Source: Anaerolineales bacterium
GTDB lineage: Bacteria; Chloroflexota; Anaerolineae; Aggregatilineales; UBA2796
Assembly: GCA_015075625.1 (NCBI GenBank)
Contig: JABTTZ010000002.1
Span: forward strand, 558,001 to 622,000
DNA length: 64,000 bases
Reading direction: 5' to 3'
Below are positions 9,936 to 64,000 of this stretch, piece by piece. The notes under the pieces are model-generated. The model made no database searches. It had not been told where the DNA came from and worked only from the letters and a program-made list of their open reading frames with translations. The position numbers were made by a program, and so were the translations under genes. Each line of letters starts with the position of its first letter. The first letter of the stretch is position 1.

Positions 9936-12329
9936 ATGACCACCCCACCCACCATCCCCGCCATTTTTGACTCGCTGGACTACGGACCCGCCCCCGAAGC
10001 CGACACCCCCGCCCGCGCATGGCTGGCAGGGCGCGGCGATGGGAACAAGATGCCCCTTTATATTGATGGGGCGTTCGTCGTTGGGGCAGCGCATTTCGAG
10101 AGCATCAATCCCGCCACCGGAAAGCTCCTAGCACACATTGCACAAGCGAGCGACGATCAGGTGAATCAGGCGGTGAGCGCCGCCCGCGCCGCTTTTGAGT
10201 CGTGGGGGAAAACACCGGGACATGTCCGCGCCCGCTACCTCTATGCGCTGGCGCGGGGAATACAAAAGCACTCGCGGATGTTCGCCGTTTTGGAGACGCT
10301 GGACAACGGCAAGCCGATCCGCGAGACGCGGGATATTGATATTCCTCTTGTGGCGCGGCATTTCTACCACCATGCGGGGTGGGCGCAGCTTATGGCAACG
10401 GAATTCCCAGAGTTTGTGCCGCACGGCGTCGTGGGGCAAATCATCCCCTGGAACTTCCCCTTGCTGATGCTGGCGTGGAAGATTGCCCCGGCGCTGGCGA
10501 TGGGCAACACGGTGATCCTCAAACCTGCCGAGTTCACCTCGCTCACAGCGATCCGCTTTGCCGAGCTTTGCCATGAGGTCGGTTTGCCGCACGGGGTGGT
10601 GAACATTCTGACGGGGGATGGCAAGGTGGGGGCGCTGCTCACCGCCCATCGGGGAATCGACAAAATTGCCTTCACGGGCTCCACTGAGGTGGGGCGGATC
10701 ATTCGCAAAACGACGGCGGGCAGCGGGAAAAAGCTCTCGCTTGAATTGGGTGGGAAGTCCCCCTTCATCGTCTTTGAGGATGCCGACCTTGACAGCGCGG
10801 TAGAGGGCGTTGTCGATGCGATCTGGTTCAATCAGGGACAGGTCTGCTGCGCCGGATCGCGGCTGCTTGTCCAAGAAAACATTGCCGAACGGTTGATCAG
10901 CAAGCTCCGCACGCGCATGGAAACGCTCCGTGTGGGCGACCCGCTGGATAAGGCGGTGGATATTGGGGCGATTGTCGCCCCTATCCAGTTGGCAAAGATC
11001 GCGCAGCTTGTGGAACAAGGGATTCAGGAAGGGGCGACCTGTTGGCAACCCTCGTGGGCAGTCCCCAAAGAGGGTTACTTCTTCCCGCCAACACTCTTTA
11101 CGAATGTCGCCCCCGCCGCGACGATTGCCCAAGTCGAAATTTTTGGTCCCGTCCTCGTCACAATGACCTTCCGCACCCCGGAAGAAGCGGTTGCCCTCGC
11201 CAACAACACACCCTTTGGCTTGGCGGCGTCGGTGTGGTCGGATAATCTGAACCTCTCCCTTGATGTGGCGCGAAAGGTGAAGGCGGGGACGGTCTGGATC
11301 AACGCCACAAACCTTTTTGATGCGGCGTCTGGTTTCGGCGGCTATCGGGAGAGCGGCTACGGGCGCGAGGGCGGGCGCGAGGGGCTGTATGAATACATGA
11401 CGCTCCCCCCCCATACCCCCCCATCTGGCGGCAATTCACAACCAAACCCCGATCAAATACCCACCGCTCTTGGTAGCACTTCTGGTGGGACGCCAGTCCC
11501 CCTTGACCGCACAGCGAAACAGTTCATCGATGGCAAACAGGCACGCCCTGACTCCGGCTACTCGCTGCTCATTCGGAACGCCTCTGGTGCGCTGGTAGGA
11601 GAGGTTGGCGAGGGCAATCGAAAAGACATTCGGAACGCTGTTGAAGCGGCAGCAAAAGCGGCAGCCACATGGGGGTTCACGCATGGGCATCAACGGGCGC
11701 AAATCCTCTACTACACTGCCGAGAATCTCGCCATCCGTGCCGCCGAATTTGCCGCCCGTTTGGAGCATATGACGGGGGCGGCGGGGCGTGCTGAGGTAGA
11801 GGCAAGCATTGAGCGGCTCTTTACATGGGCGGCGTGGGCAGATAAATATGAAGGCGTCGTCCATAACACACCGCTGCGCGGAGTTGTCATGGCGATCCCC
11901 GAACCGATTGGCGTGATCGGCATTGCCTGCCCAGACGATGCGCCGCTGTTGGCGTTCGTGGATACGGTCATTGGTGCGGTGGCAATGGGTAATACGGTGG
12001 TCGCCATCCCCTCTGAGCGCCACCCCCTTGCGGCGACGGATTTGTATCAGGTCTTTGAGACCTCCGATATGCCAGCCGGCGTGATCAACATCATCACGGG
12101 CAAGCGCGAAGGCTTGGTGAAGGTCTTGGCAGAGCATGAAAACGTTGATTCCGTGTGGTATTTTGGCAGTTCGGAAGGGGCGGCGGCGGTAGAAGCCGCC
12201 TCGGTGAGCAACATGAAGCGGACATGGGCGGTGGCAAAACCCCGCGATTGGTTTGCAGCGGGGCGGGCGGCGGAACTGCTCCGCCACGCCACACAGGTAA
12301 AGAATATCTGGACGCCCTACGGGGAGTAG
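9936..12329 (+). CDS. ALDH16-type two-domain aldehyde dehydrogenase
   Basis: A 797-residue protein with two ALDH modules. Residues 1-490 form a complete catalytic unit: the IFDSLDYGPAPE N-terminus typical of the ALDH16 family, PWNFPLLMLAWK, FTGSTEVGR, Glu270 in LELGGKSPF and nucleophile Cys304 in FNQGQVCCAGSR. Residues about 495-797 form a second, shorter ALDH-like module with a DGKQ start and GNTVVAIPSERHPL but no Cys motif, ending in the NIWTPYGE tail seen in ALDH16. Bacterial ALDH16 enzymes oxidise aldehydes with NAD in the first domain while the second serves quaternary structure. Length and order fit that family well. The physiological aldehyde is unknown. Confidence 0.9.
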   Translation: MTTPPTIPAIFDSLDYGPAPEADTPARAWLAGRGDGNKMPLYIDGAFVVGAAHFESINPATGKLLAHIAQASDDQVNQAVSAARAAFESWGKTPGHVRARYLYALARGIQKHSRMFAVLETLDNGKPIRETRDIDIPLVARHFYHHAGWAQLMATEFPEFVPHGVVGQIIPWNFPLLMLAWKIAPALAMGNTVILKPAEFTSLTAIRFAELCHEVGLPHGVVNILTGDGKVGALLTAHRGIDKIAFTGSTEVGRIIRKTTAGSGKKLSLELGGKSPFIVFEDADLDSAVEGVVDAIWFNQGQVCCAGSRLLVQENIAERLISKLRTRMETLRVGDPLDKAVDIGAIVAPIQLAKIAQLVEQGIQEGATCWQPSWAVPKEGYFFPPTLFTNVAPAATIAQVEIFGPVLVTMTFRTPEEAVALANNTPFGLAASVWSDNLNLSLDVARKVKAGTVWINATNLFDAASGFGGYRESGYGREGGREGLYEYMTLPPHTPPSGGNSQPNPDQIPTALGSTSGGTPVPLDRTAKQFIDGKQARPDSGYSLLIRNASGALVGEVGEGNRKDIRNAVEAAAKAAATWGFTHGHQRAQILYYTAENLAIRAAEFAARLEHMTGAAGRAEVEASIERLFTWAAWADKYEGVVHNTPLRGVVMAIPEPIGVIGIACPDDAPLLAFVDTVIGAVAMGNTVVAIPSERHPLAATDLYQVFETSDMPAGVINIITGKREGLVKVLAEHENVDSVWYFGSSEGAAAVEAASVSNMKRTWAVAKPRDWFAAGRAAELLRHATQVKNIWTPYGE

Positions 12330-41946: not shown

Positions 41947-42327
41947 CTAACCCACCAACAGCAAATCCCGCAGGCTTTGGACAAAGGTGGTTGGGCTGAT
42001 TGGCTTCGAGAAATAGGCATTGAAGCCAGCGCTTTGGGCATCCTCGGCAACGGTGGTCGAGTGATAGGCGATAATTGCAATCACAGGAAGGTCTTCTGTG
42101 CGGGCATCGGCACGGATATTTTGGAGCGTTTGCCACCCATCCATTTCGGGCATGGCAAGGTCGGTAATGACCAGATCAGGGGCAAGGTCAAAAAGCATTG
42201 CCAGGCATTCAACGCCGTTTGCGGCATGATGCACCTCAATCCCGTAATGGGTCAAAATTTTGGTGACCAATTGAACATCGTCAAAGGAATCTTCCGCCAA
42301 GAGAATTCGCCACGTTTGATCGTTCAT
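41947..42327 (-). CDS. receiver-only response regulator
   Basis: A 126-residue CheY-like protein with no output domain. The acidic pair is in LLAEDSFDD and phospho-accepting Asp56 in LVITDLAMPEMDG; Lys108 is present in YFSKPIS. The switch position is Ile86 (VIAIIAY) where Thr or Ser is usual, so signal transmission may be altered. ATG 42327 has AGGAC upstream; an ATG at 42354 would overlap the upstream TGA as ATGA and cannot be excluded. It is the last gene in the histidine kinase cluster. Confidence 0.85.
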   Translation of the reverse strand: MNDQTWRILLAEDSFDDVQLVTKILTHYGIEVHHAANGVECLAMLFDLAPDLVITDLAMPEMDGWQTLQNIRADARTEDLPVIAIIAYHSTTVAEDAQSAGFNAYFSKPISPTTFVQSLRDLLLVG

Positions 42328-42350
42328 GTGTAGGTGTCCTATGCGGTTCG

Positions 42351-42770
42351 TCATGTTCCTGCGGTGTCTAGCTGTGTAACAACCTCTGTAATTTCCTTGA
42401 CGAAGGTGATAAGCGAGAATGGCTTGCCAATGTACCCATCAACCCCCGCATTACGGATGCTGTCTTCGTCGCCAATCATGGCGTTGGCGGTGAGAGCAAT
42501 CACTGGCACGCTTTGAACTGTGGGGCGGGAACGAATTACCCCCAAAAGCGCGTAACCATCCATAGAAGGCATTGAAATGTCCGAAAGAATCAGGGTTGGC
42601 TAGAGCGTTTTTAACAGGGCTAAACCGCGCTCTACGGAAAGCGCTGTGTGGACGGTTGCACCATAAAACTCCAACAACTTAGATGCCACAGTTAGGGTAT
42701 CCTGATCATCCTCGACAATAAGAACAATCCATCCCTTTAGATCAATACTGTTTTGTGTCCTTAGAGACAT
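42351..42770 (-). pseudogene. receiver-only response regulator interrupted by in-frame amber codon
   Basis: Reading from ATG 42770 gives MSLRTQNSIDLKGWIVLIVE, then DDQDT and so on for 56 codons, a TAG at 42602-42600, and without any frameshift PTLILSDISMPSMDGYALLG, VIALTANAM and GYIGKPF to a TGA at 42351. Every receiver residue is intact: acidic pair before the stop, phospho-Asp, Thr and Lys after it. One substitution (for example CAG to TAG) explains the break. The downstream fragment could start at 42572 but would lack the phospho-Asp. Either a recent pseudogene, a base-call error or a read-through product. It sits between the MASE1 kinase and a second receiver gene. Confidence 0.85.
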
Positions 42771-42822: not shown

Positions 42823-44526
42823 TTAGGCGGGAATCAGGGGGAGGGTCACGGTGAACGTGCTGCCTTGACCGGGCGTGCTTTGAACGCGCACATTGCCGCT
42901 CATCAGCAGGGCAAGTTTGCGGACAATGGCCAAGCCTAAGCCCGTCCCATTGTGTTGGCGGTTGGCAGCAGAATCACCTTGACGAAACTCATCAAAGATC
43001 GTCTCCTGAAGGTGGGAAGGAATCCCCATTCCGCTATCGGTTACCGCCAGTGACCACGAGGCATCACTCACTTTTTTAAGATGCACCTCCACAGCGCCTT
43101 TTTCGGTAAATTTAAGGGCATTGGAGAGCAAATTGACGACGATTTGTTTCACCCGCCCCATATCGCCCATGATACGATTGGGCAGAGCGGGGTCAAGGTC
43201 TACAGTCAGGGCAATTTGCTTTTCTTCGGCAAGGACATGGTATTGGGCAATCAACTCATTGACCATCGTCCGCAGGGTATAGGGCTTGTTGATAATATCT
43301 AGGCGTCCGACTTCAATCTTGGAAAGATCAAGAATCTCATTGATCAAGCCCAAAAGATCGCGGGCATTGACCAAAACACGCTCTTGATAGTTGCGCTGTT
43401 CGTCGTTCAGTTCGCCCGCCATCCCCGCCAATTGAATCTCCGTATAGCCAACAACAGCGTTTAGCGGGGTGCGCAGTTCATGGGACATGGTGGCAAGGAA
43501 GGCGCTCTTTGCCTTGTTTGCGGCTTCGGCGTCAAGGCGGGCTTTGTTTAGCTGTGCGTTTGTCTCCTCCAATTCGCGGGTGCGCAGGCGGACGCGCTCC
43601 TCAAGGTTTTCCTGAGATGCCCGCCGTCCGCTGATTTCTGCCGCCAAAATAAGCGCAGTAATCGCTACTGTGGAGACGAATGCCTGTACCAAGAGCAGCG
43701 ATTCGTTTAAATCGGGGCGACGAAAGCTGCTGACGCCCTGAATGGTCGTCACCAAGGCGATGAGGGCAACAATGAGGATTGATCCGGCAGCGCCATACTG
43801 CTCAAAACGGAAAACACTCACCAGCAAGATGGGAATTATTGTATATTCAATGGGGTAGCCGCTGCGAAAGGCAAGAAAGCCGAGCAGAAGGAATAACCCT
43901 TGATGGAGAAGTGTCTCTGGCAGGCGTTCAATCCCATAAGGTGGGCGGCGAGAAAAGATCAGTAGGGCAGGGGTGATAATGAGGATACCAACGGCATCCC
44001 CTAGCCACCAAGTGACCCACGTAATGGCGAAATTTTCTGGTTTTGCATAGCCGGCAAGGGTGATGCTGATTGTCCCCATGGTGGCGTTAATCAGGCACGC
44101 GCCCAATGCCGCCAAGCCCGCGAAGATAAGGACATCATTCGTCAGGGTGAACGGATAATGAGGTATCTTGGTGAAACGCCGGAGAAGATAATCCCCCAGA
44201 TAGGCTTCAAGGACTGCCCCTAGCCCGATAATAAGGCTTACCGTCAACGCTGTAGGTAGGCTCTCTGGGGCGTAAAACGCACGAATATTCCCATAAAACG
44301 AGCCGAGTAGAATCCCCGGCAAGGCAGTCCGCCGAAACGAAATAACCGCCGCCAGCGCCACCCCAGAAGGCAGCCAAACAGCGGTGACATTTCCAGCAAT
44401 AGCAAATTGAAAGCCGATTTGCGCGGTGAGCGCGTAGACGATCCCCACAGCGGCTGTGATCGCTGCCATCTGCCAGAGAGGTTTGCTTTGCCGCAACGAA
44501 GGCGAGGGTAGAACTGATAACACCAT
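42823..44526 (-). CDS. MASE1-domain sensor histidine kinase
   Basis: A 567-residue membrane kinase. Residues about 10-290 form a MASE1 sensor with eight or so helices (VWLPSGVALAAVI, LGAVLEAYLGDYLL and WVTWWLGDAVGILIITPALL are typical). A coiled stretch (ENLEERVRLRTRELEETNAQ) leads to HisKA with FLATMSHELRTPLNAVVGY and a HATPase domain with NLLSNALKFTEKG (N box), VTDSGMGIP (G1) and GTGLGLAIV (G2). It should autophosphorylate and pass phosphate to the receivers encoded next on the same strand. ATG 44526 has GGAG upstream; a TTG at 44544 is less likely. The signal is unknown. Confidence 0.9.
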   Translation of the reverse strand: MVLSVLPSPSLRQSKPLWQMAAITAAVGIVYALTAQIGFQFAIAGNVTAVWLPSGVALAAVISFRRTALPGILLGSFYGNIRAFYAPESLPTALTVSLIIGLGAVLEAYLGDYLLRRFTKIPHYPFTLTNDVLIFAGLAALGACLINATMGTISITLAGYAKPENFAITWVTWWLGDAVGILIITPALLIFSRRPPYGIERLPETLLHQGLFLLLGFLAFRSGYPIEYTIIPILLVSVFRFEQYGAAGSILIVALIALVTTIQGVSSFRRPDLNESLLLVQAFVSTVAITALILAAEISGRRASQENLEERVRLRTRELEETNAQLNKARLDAEAANKAKSAFLATMSHELRTPLNAVVGYTEIQLAGMAGELNDEQRNYQERVLVNARDLLGLINEILDLSKIEVGRLDIINKPYTLRTMVNELIAQYHVLAEEKQIALTVDLDPALPNRIMGDMGRVKQIVVNLLSNALKFTEKGAVEVHLKKVSDASWSLAVTDSGMGIPSHLQETIFDEFRQGDSAANRQHNGTGLGLAIVRKLALLMSGNVRVQSTPGQGSTFTVTLPLIPA

Positions 44527-44650
44527 GAAGGGGGAACTCCGCAAAAAAACCGTTAGATAGGTAAACTCAATTGTAGAGGGAGAGATGGTATCTCACCACA
44601 AAGACAACCCCCAAAGGGGATTCGTTTATTGACCATCTCCCTTATCTCCT

Positions 44651-59336: not shown

Positions 59337-59759
59337 TTAACTGGTTCCATCATTGGAAGTCGTTTCGCTACCGACATTCTCCACCCTCAAAATCTTTCGC
59401 ACCGCCTGAATCAAGTCAGAGGGGCTAAAGGGTTTCGTGACATAATCATTCACTTTAGCGATGTTCAGCCCTAGACGGCGATCAATATCCTGTGCCTTTG
59501 CGGTGAGAATAATCACTGGAATATGTTTCGTAGCGTCATTCGCCCGGATCGATTGATAGACTTCCCAACCATCCATATCGGGCATCATGAGGTCAAGCAA
59601 GACAAGGTTTGGCTTTAAAGCCTCCACCGCCCGCAAGCCATCTGCGCCGTTCCCAACGCCAGTTACCTCAAACCCTTCCCGTTTCAAAATCAATTTCACA
59701 AGTTCAATGGTTTTGGGATCATCTTCAATACAGACGATCTTCACCGGATGGTCAGTCAT
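59337..59759 (-). CDS. receiver-only response regulator
   Basis: A 140-residue CheY-like protein with all switch residues: acidic pair in IVCIEDDPK, phospho-Asp in LVLLDLMMPDMDGWEV, Thr in VIILTAKAQD and Lys in YVTKPFSP. A short hydrophilic tail (VENVGSETTSNDGTS) replaces an output domain. ATG 59759 follows GGGAG at good distance; the adjacent GTG would add one residue. It precedes the baseplate-J-like gene by 12 bases, making it the likely leading gene of the ruvX operon. Confidence 0.9.
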   Translation of the reverse strand: MTDHPVKIVCIEDDPKTIELVKLILKREGFEVTGVGNGADGLRAVEALKPNLVLLDLMMPDMDGWEVYQSIRANDATKHIPVIILTAKAQDIDRRLGLNIAKVNDYVTKPFSPSDLIQAVRKILRVENVGSETTSNDGTS

Positions 59760-59933
59760 CACGGTTCTCCCGCTTATAATGGCAAAAAATGATATACTGA
59801 GTCTATCACATGCCCTCTATTGGGAAAAGATGAGCGGCAATGCACAAGAATCATACCCAACAAAAACTCAGGTACTATTAAAGAGCATGTCTTTCTTGGG
59901 AACAAGCAGAATAGGCATAAGGAGAAGGCGACG

Positions 59934-60845
59934 ATGAGCGACGATCCGGCGATCAATGTCTCGCAACAAGACATAGAAGAAACAACCCGCCTATTAGAGC
60001 AGATGGTTAGCGCAGCGAAAAAACAAGTTGGGACATTGGCAGGCGGTGTCCAGACCGACCTTGCCGCTGAAGGGGTTGCCCTCTTAGATAAACTGCGAAC
60101 CGTAGAAGTACGTTTTTCTAACCCTAACGCAAAATTTTTCCGGTTGACCCCCAAACGCTTTGAGCGCGAGGGCATTGAGCTTGCCGGATGGGTAAAGGAT
60201 AGTTTGAAAACCTTTGACTACTATTTCTTAGGGATGACCGCCAACCTCTTTACCGGAGATACGGGCGTTCAGTTTAGTTCCCTTCTAACACGTTTTACCT
60301 TTAGCCCAGATACAACCATCCTGCACAGCCTATTCCCCACCAGCCAATGGCGAACCGTCTTTAGCGTTGAAGGCGGGTTTAGTGTGGGCGTTGATAACGA
60401 ACTTAACTATGGCATTGAGGCACCAGAGCGCTCCCTGGAGATTCCCGGCTTGAATGCCAGCGTGCGTGGGGCGTTAACCACCAGCGGCGGCTTGAAAGGA
60501 AAAGCCGTCATTGCCATGCCCGATTTCAAATATGAACAAGGGCGAAGCGAGATTGCCGTTGCCGGAGAGGGCAGCGACATTGCCCAATGGCGAGTGACGA
60601 CGCCGGAATTGAAACAACAACAGCGCGTCGATTACGCCATGATTTTCAAAGTCCCCAAAGGGGCAGCAGCGATTACCCTTGAAGGGAAGATGATCGCCCA
60701 AACCTCTATGCCCTGGCTCACGGCGCGTCTTGGTGATCTCTTGAACGCGCTGGCAGGCGTATTTCCTTTCCTCACGCGGCGCGATGCAAAGCTCCCGTTA
60801 GGCGCGGTGGAAACGTGGAAAGACCTTGCCCTACCGCAGGATTGA
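59934..60845 (+). CDS. conserved hypothetical protein, unknown function
   Basis: A 303-residue protein from ATG 59934, which has AAGGAGAAGG upstream; an earlier ATG would add 38 unsupported residues. The N-terminus is helical (DIEETTRLLEQMVSAAKKQVGTLAGGVQTDLAAEGV), the middle is aromatic- and beta-rich (FDYYFLGMTANLFTGDTG, VFSVEGGFSVGVDNELNYGIEAPE) and the end has VDYAMIFKVPKGAAAITLEG. I do not recognise a domain. It diverges from the response regulator gene and shares its promoter region. Confidence 0.6.
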   Translation: MSDDPAINVSQQDIEETTRLLEQMVSAAKKQVGTLAGGVQTDLAAEGVALLDKLRTVEVRFSNPNAKFFRLTPKRFEREGIELAGWVKDSLKTFDYYFLGMTANLFTGDTGVQFSSLLTRFTFSPDTTILHSLFPTSQWRTVFSVEGGFSVGVDNELNYGIEAPERSLEIPGLNASVRGALTTSGGLKGKAVIAMPDFKYEQGRSEIAVAGEGSDIAQWRVTTPELKQQQRVDYAMIFKVPKGAAAITLEGKMIAQTSMPWLTARLGDLLNALAGVFPFLTRRDAKLPLGAVETWKDLALPQD

Positions 60846-61317
60846 GGATGTGATAGAGAAGACTCCATAGAAAACTTCGCTAGGAACTCGCCTTAGGCAA
60901 ACGGTCTGATTCTCCTTGAGATTAGCTGTATAAAAGGGCGGGGAGGGAGGAACGCCCCTCCCAAAGAGTGTCCCCCTCAGCCCGCTATGCGGGAGAGGGG
61001 GCGAGGGGTTGTGTGTAAGGTGCGTTAGAAAGACATTCAAAACGTTTAGTCGGCACGTGGTTTTGCCAACATAACCATGACAACAGCCTCATTTTTCAAG
61101 TCATGCTACACTATTTAGACGTGACATGCTTGCCCTTGTCGTTCTACTCCCTTATCCTGATGGGAAAAGGGGAAATTAGGTTTTTGAAGGGGTTAAGCCT
61201 TCACACTCACACTACCCCTTTGAGCAATCACAGGGCAATGTGGTTCGACTGGGGACATCCTAACTCGATTAGGGCGAATGATCATCCGACGGGCATTCAG
61301 GGGAGGACGCAATCACG
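60846..61317. other. 472-bp intergenic region
   Basis: No gene is supported. A G/C-rich hairpin pair lies at 60938-60962 (GGGAGG with CCCTCCC arms) and at 60972-61001, where CCCCCT and CCCGC pair with GCGGG and AGGGGG. The bases GTGTGTAAGGTGCG near 61010 loosely resemble the right end of the TAGGACTTACGCA repeat. The right half is AT-richer and should contain the promoter of the receiver gene; GGGAGGACGC before 61318 is its ribosome site. Confidence 0.5.
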
Positions 61318-61689
61318 ATGAAACGTGTCATGGTAGTTGACGATGAACAAGGCGCACGTAAAATCCTGAATATCTTACTTAATCGGGTAGGCTTTTTTGT
61401 TATTGAGGCGGCAAATGCCGACGACGCCTTAAAGCATTTGGAAGCGGATATCCCTGATTTGATTATCCTCGATATTATGATGGGGGGGATGGATGGAATC
61501 ACGCTCTGTCGAACACTTCGCAACCACCCACAGACGGCGCAAACGCCTATTCTAATGCTCTCCGCTCGTTCCGATGGGGAAGCGGTTGTCCAAAGCGCTG
61601 ATGCAGGAGCGACAGATTACATTCAGAAACCCATCTTCCACAACGACCTTGTGGCGCGGGTGCGGGCGCTGCTAAAGATGTCCGATTAA
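61318..61689 (+). CDS. receiver-only response regulator
   Basis: A 123-residue CheY-like protein with the full set: acidic pair in VMVVDDEQGA, phospho-Asp in LIILDIMMGGMDGITL, Ser in ILMLSARSD and Lys in YIQKPIFHND. It ends LVARVRALLKMSD, exactly the OmpR-type receiver end, with no DNA-binding domain. GGGAGG precedes the ATG. Its stop overlaps the acpS start (TAATG), coupling a signalling protein to a lipid-synthesis enzyme. Confidence 0.9.
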   Translation: MKRVMVVDDEQGARKILNILLNRVGFFVIEAANADDALKHLEADIPDLIILDIMMGGMDGITLCRTLRNHPQTAQTPILMLSARSDGEAVVQSADAGATDYIQKPIFHNDLVARVRALLKMSD

Positions 61690-62051
61690 TGCTGCGCGTT
61701 GGTGTCGATATGATTGAGGTCAGGCGCATTGCCGAGGCGCTCGCGCGGCATGGGGATCGCTTTTTGATGCGCTGTTTCACGCTTGGAGAACAAACAACCT
61801 GCGCCGGTGCAGCGCCGCGTTTGGCGGCACGCTTTGCCGCCAAAGAAGCGGTGGCGAAAGCACTTGGTACAGGGATTGGCGCTGTGCGTTGGGTAGAAAT
61901 TGAGGTGGTCAGCGATTCAGAGGGGCGCCCCTCGGTGCATCTTCATGGCGATGCGGCTCGTCTTGCCCATGCCCTAAGGTTAACGACATGGGAGATCAGC
62001 CTGACCCACACGGATGATCAGGCACTCGCGTTTGTTGTGGCAATGGGCTGA
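61689..62051 (+). CDS. acpS: holo-[acyl-carrier-protein] synthase
   Basis: A 120-residue phosphopantetheinyl transferase that attaches the CoA arm to acyl carrier protein. RVGVDMIEVRRIAEAL carries the metal Asp, FTLGEQTTC and RLAARFAAKEAVAKALGTGIG the conserved Glu-Ala region, and WEISLTHTDDQALAFVVA the C-terminal strand. The ATG overlaps the upstream stop by one base. Its last 34 bases overlap the end of the convergent receiver gene at 62018. Length is normal for the family. Confidence 0.94.
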   Translation: MLRVGVDMIEVRRIAEALARHGDRFLMRCFTLGEQTTCAGAAPRLAARFAAKEAVAKALGTGIGAVRWVEIEVVSDSEGRPSVHLHGDAARLAHALRLTTWEISLTHTDDQALAFVVAMG

Positions 62052-62443
62052 GCGGGGGGATCACTAGGCGCTTCCAAATTGCCCGTATCTCCCAATAACC
62101 GGCGCGTCATGGTGATCAATTCGTGAACACTGATTGGCTTTTGCAAGAACAAATCGGCAAGCTCTCCCTCAGGGGTGCCCATAGCCACTGCGTTGCTGCT
62201 GACCATAATCACTTTCACCATCCGCATCGTGGCTTCCCTTCGGATATGGGCAAGAACTTCTAACCCCGTCATCCTCGGCATGTTGACATCCATAATGACA
62301 ACATCCGGCAGATGTTTCACCAGCGCAGCAATCCCTTCTATCCCGTCACAGGCAAGGCGAACATCGAAATTCGCCTTGCGAAACACCCGTGTGTAAATCA
62401 ACCGTAGATCGTCGTTGTCTTCCACAATGAGAACGCTGCGCAT
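62018..62443 (-). CDS. receiver-only response regulator
   Basis: A 141-residue CheY-like protein. The acidic pair is in VLIVEDNDDL, phospho-Asp in VVIMDVNMPRMTGLEV, Ser in VIMVSSNAV and Lys in LFLQKPIS. The tail (GNLEAPSDPPAQPIATTNASA) is a 20-residue flexible extension that overlaps the acpS end. It follows another receiver gene on the same strand by about 37 bases, so both probably share a transcript. Confidence 0.88.
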   Translation of the reverse strand: MRSVLIVEDNDDLRLIYTRVFRKANFDVRLACDGIEGIAALVKHLPDVVIMDVNMPRMTGLEVLAHIRREATMRMVKVIMVSSNAVAMGTPEGELADLFLQKPISVHELITMTRRLLGDTGNLEAPSDPPAQPIATTNASA

Positions 62444-62480
62444 AGGGTGTGGACTCTCGTTGGAATGAACCTAATCGAAT

Positions 62481-62942
62481 TTAAAGGGTGCTGCGTGAGC
62501 TAGGGATGCGATTTAAGATGCGCCCAATATCCTTAACCAAGGTCATGACATTGAACGGTTTGCTGATGTAGCCATCAAAGCCGGCACTCACAATCCGCTC
62601 TTTGTCGCCGTCAATAGCATAGGCCGTCACGGCAATGGTGGGAATATTGGTATAAGCGGGGTTTCCCCGGATGATTTCGATCATCTCGTACCCATCGACT
62701 TCCGGCATCCGAATATCGGCAAGGATCAGATTCGGGCAGATTTTTTCTAAAATCGCCAACCCCTCACGTCCATTGCGGGCGGTGTGGACGATTGCGCCAT
62801 GATAGTTCAGCACAGAACGAATCACGGTTACGTTATCTGGGGTGTCGTCCACAACAAGGATATTCCAACCTTCCACGCTGAGGGGAATTTCACGGGTGAT
62901 TTTATGAGGTGGGAGCGGTGGGGTCATGGTTGAATTAGCCAT
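62481..62942 (-). CDS. receiver-only response regulator
   Basis: A 153-residue protein with a 30-residue N-terminal extension before the receiver (NILVVDDTPDN). Phospho-Asp is in LILADIRMPEVDGYEM, Thr in TIAVTAYAID and Lys in YISKPFNVMTLVKDIG. The last segment is close to that of the amber-interrupted receiver at 42351-42770, suggesting paralogy. Start placed at ATG 62942; TTG 62954 and ATG 62927 are alternatives. No output domain is present. Confidence 0.85.
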   Translation of the reverse strand: MANSTMTPPLPPHKITREIPLSVEGWNILVVDDTPDNVTVIRSVLNYHGAIVHTARNGREGLAILEKICPNLILADIRMPEVDGYEMIEIIRGNPAYTNIPTIAVTAYAIDGDKERIVSAGFDGYISKPFNVMTLVKDIGRILNRIPSSRSTL

Positions 62943-63093
62943 TGTAATACTCAAGCCTTCTGTGCTTTATAAGGGCGAAAATGGGTCAGGATTAGCGCAG
63001 TGGAAGGTGCCTTTATGGAACCCTAAGCAAGCATACTACACATTGAAATTCGTCTTCAAGCAGGATGCACATTTTTCAGGAAAAATTCACAGC

Positions 63094-63516
63094 CTATACC
63101 TTTAGTGCTTCAACCAATGCCTCATGAAGCTGCTCGAACGAGGCATACTTTGCCACACAGCTTACCGCCCCCGCTCGCAGCATTGCCGTTCGCAGGTGGG
63201 CGTCCTCAAACCCGATAAGGGCGATCACACGCACTTCTGGACACCGTTCGCGCAGCATATAGGCAACGTCAATTCCATTGAGCTTGGGCATTGAAATATC
63301 CAAAAAAATCACGTCTGGATGGGTCTTCAGGCATAACTCCACCGCCCCCATACCATCGTGTGCCATACCAAGCAACGTTACACCATCGATTGCGCTTAGA
63401 AAGCGCTTTAGGCTTTGACACATGGGGGCAAAATCATCGGCTATAACAACCTGCACCGTTCTTGATAATGGCTCACTGTGCAAGGGGTAGCCAATGTGAC
63501 TATTTTGTTGGATCAT
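63094..63516 (-). CDS. NarL-type receiver protein lacking output domain, atypical switch
   Basis: A 140-residue protein from ATG 63516 with GGA upstream; a longer reading to 63597 has no match. The receiver is of the NarL/FixJ sort: VVIADDFAPMCQSLKRFL, phospho-Asp73 in VIFLDISMPKLNG, Lys123 in CVAKYASFEQLHEAL. The switch residue is Ile101 (VIALIGFED) where Thr or Ser is expected. It ends where the helix-turn-helix of NarL proteins would begin. It follows the LuxR-type regulator gene on the same strand. Confidence 0.82.
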   Translation of the reverse strand: MIQQNSHIGYPLHSEPLSRTVQVVIADDFAPMCQSLKRFLSAIDGVTLLGMAHDGMGAVELCLKTHPDVIFLDISMPKLNGIDVAYMLRERCPEVRVIALIGFEDAHLRTAMLRAGAVSCVAKYASFEQLHEALVEALKV

Positions 63517-63660
63517 GGTACGTTCCGTTAAGTACTGTGGCACGGTACTGATTCCCCCAATAGCGATAATCATATGCTCAAATAGTGGAGAATACATCCG
63601 TAAAGAGGGGGGTTTTGCCCTAGCCGATAGTCTAGTTTTCTCCCTAGTCGCTCAGAGCCA

Positions 63661-64000
63661 TTACTTCACCAGTTTCTTCTCCAGCGCCAAAGCGACTGCC
63701 TCGGTGCGGCTGGTGACGCCCAATTTGGTGAGGATACTGCTGATGTGAAATTTCACTGTGGAAAGGCTGACGGTCAATCGCTCCGCTATTTGTGGATTGC
63801 TCATCCCCTTCACGAGGAGAGTCAGCACCTCTTGCTCGCGTGTGGTAAGCATGTAATCGGGGAGCGGGGGTTGGGTTGCCGTTCGTACCAGTGCTTCTGT
63901 CGCCTCTGGATCAAGGTAACGCAAGCCAGCAACAGCATTGCGAATGGCGCGTTCAAGCTCCTCAAAGGTAACACTCTTGAGGACGTAGCCTGTTGCCCCC
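63661..64000 (-). CDS. NarL/FixJ-family response regulator, C-terminal part (cut by window edge)
   Basis: The open frame runs off the right edge, so the N-terminal receiver lies outside. Visible are the receiver end GATGYVLKSVTFEELERAIR, with the conserved Lys, a short linker, and a LuxR-type DNA-binding domain with LTTREQEVLTLLVKGMSNPQIAERLTVSLSTVKFHISSILTKLGV. The helix-turn-helix is complete (SLSTVKFHISSI is the recognition helix). It should activate or repress transcription after phosphorylation by a kinase outside the window. The adjacent receiver gene at 63094 may be a partner. Confidence 0.92.
   Translation of the reverse strand, partial: GATGYVLKSVTFEELERAIRNAVAGLRYLDPEATEALVRTATQPPLPDYMLTTREQEVLTLLVKGMSNPQIAERLTVSLSTVKFHISSILTKLGVTSRTEAVALALEKKLVK

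Follow-up and report, generated by a model that had tools for sequence, protein, structure and literature searches.

The window analyzed here is a stretch of 64,000 nucleotides from an Anaerolineales bacterium, and positions are given in its numbering unless stated otherwise. On its minus strand lies RR1 (42351-42770), a single-domain receiver gene of 140 codons, including the terminal TGA, that is interrupted by a premature TAG. The frame, read from 42770 to 42351, opens with ATG and closes with TGA at 42353-42351, and it contains exactly one internal stop, the TAG of codon 57 (42602-42600, minus strand), located by reading of the frame and by alignment. When read through this codon, RR1 encodes 139 residues that matched PF00072 (Response_reg) with 77.5 bits (cut-off 30.2) over positions 1-110 of the 111-position profile, a score similar to the 78.9 bits of RR2, the intact neighboring receiver. 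On the basis of the alignment, the DNA retains the acidic pair E20/D21, the phospho-acceptor D64, T94, and K116-P117. The two halves fit a single domain without a shift of frame, and intact homologues match RR1 over its full length, so the resemblance to a receiver gene split by a stop is not due to chance. The TAG precedes D64 by seven codons and, judging from the receiver fold, probably falls in the loop ahead of the strand that bears the phospho-acceptor. The signature residues straddle the stop, and no single product of RR1 under the standard code contains the acidic pair, the Asp, the Thr, and the Lys together.

Normal termination at codon 57 would yield an N-terminal fragment of 56 residues (42603-42770, minus strand) that holds E20/D21 and lacks D64, T94, and K116; this fragment alone gave no Pfam match at an E-value of 0.001. 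The first in-frame ATG past the stop (42572) could start a second fragment of 73 amino acids (42351-42572, minus strand), which corresponds to a partial PF00072 domain (36.9 bits, profile positions 52-110) and contains neither the acidic pair nor the phospho-acceptor. A downstream restart that yields a working receiver was rejected, since that ATG comes just past D64; with the stop on one side of the phospho-acceptor and the restart codon on the other, neither fragment of RR1 would be predicted to work as a receiver. The upstream half of the gene (42603-42770) is AT-richer than its neighbors, with a G+C content of 44.6% (also 44.6% at third positions) versus 53.7% for the adjacent kinase gene and 51.2% for RR2, and its codon bias is weak (0.016 bits per codon versus 0.25 ± 0.11 in gene stretches). 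This composition may reflect a foreign origin or relaxed selection, the weak codon bias perhaps an older relaxation, which would speak against a recent loss.

The cassette and its relatives

RR1 lies in the middle of a cassette of the kinase-receiver-receiver type, which is found repeatedly across the order. Upstream lies its likely partner, a MASE1-HisKA-HATPase_c kinase (42823-44544, minus strand) assigned from its Pfam domains and from the related kinase that precedes RR1 homologues in relatives, and downstream lies RR2 (41947-42354, minus strand), an intact second single-domain receiver (PF00072). The description in the initial annotation, of one amber codon at codon 57 in a frame whose receiver residues are otherwise intact, positioned between a likely kinase and a second receiver, was borne out in each of these respects; it did not mention the location of the stop ahead of D64 or the variability of the stop column among relatives. 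The order kinase, receiver 1, receiver 2 was found at 16 comparison loci from other genomes of the order, and most of 28 kinase loci inspected, a sample that partly overlaps these 16, have the kinase followed by both receivers. One or both downstream receivers were missing or unrecognised beside related kinases at L206, L207, L219, L221, L223, and L229; the absence of a receiver from the cassette is therefore not rare. The most upstream ATG of RR2 overlaps the terminal stop of RR1 (ATGA), an arrangement also seen in several relatives, and a better-spaced start is located at 42327, 23 bases beyond. Translation of RR2 may be reduced through lost coupling when ribosomes do not reach the end of RR1. 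Eight kinases in the genome, including that of this cassette, are directly followed by two or more receivers, which makes partial redundancy plausible. A search of the literature on MASE1 kinases with receivers in the Chloroflexi returned nothing specific to this cassette.

Other receivers are abundant in the same region. A dense group occupies positions 59397-64000 of the window and extends slightly beyond it (G000:C2:617397-622278 in contig numbering), with five genes on the minus strand (617397, 620108, 620529, 621115, and 621940) and a single gene on the plus strand (619327). Within the genome, the paralogue nearest to RR1 is the receiver at window positions 62502-62885, with 43% identity.

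Comparison with the relatives shows how little else is altered in RR1. An alignment with 16 relatives has 31 columns with a conservation of 90% or higher, and RR1 keeps 29 of them; its two deviations compare with 0 to 4 in intact relatives. The mean identity of RR1 to the aligned homologues (0.44) is at the low end of, but inside, their own range of 0.40 to 0.51. No further stop within a receiver occurs among the best 45 RR1 matches from 154 genomes of the order. A TAA flagged as an internal stop in one relative (L267; G116) was rejected because it lies before the gene start, and flagged stops in receivers of other genomes were likewise rejected as a recurrent feature: the places that were fetched have stop-free frames covering the receiver, which puts their flagged stops at the edges of the alignment. 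The residues of the relatives at the stop column vary (K, T, E, H, V, and R), so the ancestral residue of codon 57 cannot be inferred from them. A search for related loci in the named genomes recovered distant receivers only, mostly of about 30-46% identity, with the best E-value at 42%. The top match to a named protein came from an Anaerolineae MAG, which would place the host in or near the Anaerolineae (Chloroflexota). As to the comparison with the orthologue in close relatives, proposed alongside the initial annotation, the closest homologues are free of in-frame stops, and no direct orthologue was present in the one other genome of the genus that was searched, where the genes flanking the cassette and the receiver matches are on different contigs. 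Given closest homologues of only about 50% identity and this lack of a syntenic copy, close comparison gives neither a direction nor a date for the change.

Age of the stop and quality of the assembly

RR1 has no additional stops or frame breaks. We simulated neutral drift on the gene and scored the runs in which the 29 matched columns were untouched and no new stop had appeared; such runs made up 12% of the total at a drift of 0.03 per site and 2.8% at 0.05 per site. Past roughly 5% neutral divergence, the absence of other decay is thus unlikely (P about 0.03), and the stop, if real, would be very young. Together with closest homologues in the order that have no in-frame stop, these results support the earlier suggestion of a very recent loss. 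The lack of decay fits an error in the sequence, or a functional gene that is read through, equally well. Purging of young pseudogenes is rapid in Salmonella (Kuo and Ochman 2010, PMC2916853), in keeping with such a gene being found only when it is very fresh.

The TAG might instead be a consensus error of the assembly, with an intact receiver in the living population. The undamaged state of the rest of RR1 and of every closest homologue agrees with that explanation, as does the report that internal stops in bacterial assemblies, and many apparent pseudogenes that contain them, often arise from such errors (PMC11017572). The assembly is nevertheless a good one (5 contigs, 98.46% complete), and three large families contain few internal stops, whereas a poor consensus would show more of them: the 108 receiver matches and the 69 HATPase_c matches include one case each, and the 83 ABC_tran matches include none. 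RR1 is the sole case among the receiver matches, 104 of which were above the cut-off. We regard an assembly error as rather unlikely, because the scarcity of internal stops in the three families points to a sound assembly and favors either a real mutation or a polymorphism in the population. Our conclusion is that the TAG in RR1 is probably a genuine, recent nonsense mutation or a variant within the population.

Apart from RR1, the three family searches gave a single interrupted domain, outside the window at G000:C1:123941-124279, where HATPase_c occurs in two overlapping pieces, one with an internal TGA, and gives a weak match; it is probably a broken kinase. At G000:C2:673030-673645 (L191, about 11030-11645), an HATPase_c match and a partial receiver (profile positions 43-94) lie in short frames of 231 and 101 amino acids, possibly the remains of a hybrid kinase. 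A codon-usage scan for interrupted genes over 462 kb, an insensitive method that misses RR1 itself, returned 6 candidates. In all of them a start codon follows the stop by no more than 11 codons, and they look like ordinary neighboring genes.

Decoding of TAG

The genome encodes a full-length RF1 without interruption. The stop codons of 181 long open reading frames without large overlaps, taken from a 462-kb region that contains the window, were TAA in 68, TGA in 62, and TAG in 51, so that TAG is a common genuine terminator. The 49 tRNA genes detected with Rfam models, all of which were typed by ARAGORN, include none with the anticodon CTA that reads UAG, and the amber suppressor tRNA that had been suggested as a check was therefore absent from this set. 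PylS has a cut-off of 178 bits, and its best match in the genome reached only 28.4 bits; most control genomes also give sub-cut-off matches of this kind. No other TAG-interrupted receiver was present among the 108 matches. Suppressed or read-through translation, the third possibility raised in the initial annotation, is not supported by these observations.

Useful levels of read-through could in principle arise from near-cognate tRNAs or weak termination and would supply full-length receiver at a low dose. Relatives accept many different residues at the stop column, and almost any insertion would accordingly give a working receiver; moreover, many in-frame stops in bacterial genes have been argued to be tolerated or read through, on the grounds that more than one species has them and that purifying selection acts on them (Belinky et al. 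2021, PMC7918605). That between-species conservation, which is the argument for function in those cases, is absent here, the stop being common to no relative searched, and the intact RF1, the ordinary use of TAG as a terminator, and the tRNA survey also speak against it. We consider such read-through improbable. A reversible on/off or dose-lowering switch, in which a leaky stop or a population polymorphism would set how much RR1 is available to the kinase, is slightly more doubtful still; were it true, the flow of phosphate would shift between RR1 and RR2. General recoding or suppression of TAG by a suppressor tRNA, pyrrolysine, or code reassignment, for which the in-frame TAG itself is the only support, was rejected as very unlikely, and we give it almost no weight, given the intact RF1, normal termination at TAG, the lack of a CTA tRNA and of PylS, the uniqueness of the case, and the absence of any excess of gene-internal TAG in the three family searches and the codon-usage scan.

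Interpretation and comparison with known systems

The weights placed on the four readings, namely a real mutation or variant, an assembly error, useful read-through, and general recoding, are judgements and were not computed. In the preferred reading, a recent nonsense mutation would inactivate RR1, or switch it off in part of the population. Ribosomes would stop at UAG with RF1 and release the 56-residue fragment without the phospho-acceptor, and the kinase would then signal only via RR2 or via receivers of the sister cassettes. The sequence itself shows the stop, the undamaged remainder of RR1, translation machinery for the standard code, and intact homologous cassettes in relatives; from these we infer that the living organism carries the stop and that the RR1 product is non-functional. 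Most likely this is an ordinary event: one of the receivers in a cassette with several sister cassettes in the genome has recently acquired a nonsense codon. As it stands, the case represents either a routine example of a gene inactivated not long ago or a caution for annotation. If the stop is real, RR1 provides a natural loss of one of the two receivers in a cassette that is widespread in the order, and hints that the two are not both essential.

RR1 resembles the cases of Belinky et al. (PMC7918605) in that its otherwise conserved sequence carries a TAG in frame; theirs, however, were chosen as common to two or more species, whereas the stop in RR1 occurs in no other genome searched. The likeness to a young bacterial pseudogene (PMC2916853) is in the single inactivating change, the lack of other decay, and the restriction to one genome among those searched, although the genomes searched include no strain-level relative that would date the change in RR1, here a nonsense substitution, or show it to be derived. 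Apart from the TAG ahead of the phospho-acceptor, which truncates the product under the standard code, RR1 matches a single-domain response regulator of the CheY/DivK/Spo0F type (PF00072): a full receiver with all of the phosphorylation-site residues and no output domain, encoded beside a kinase.
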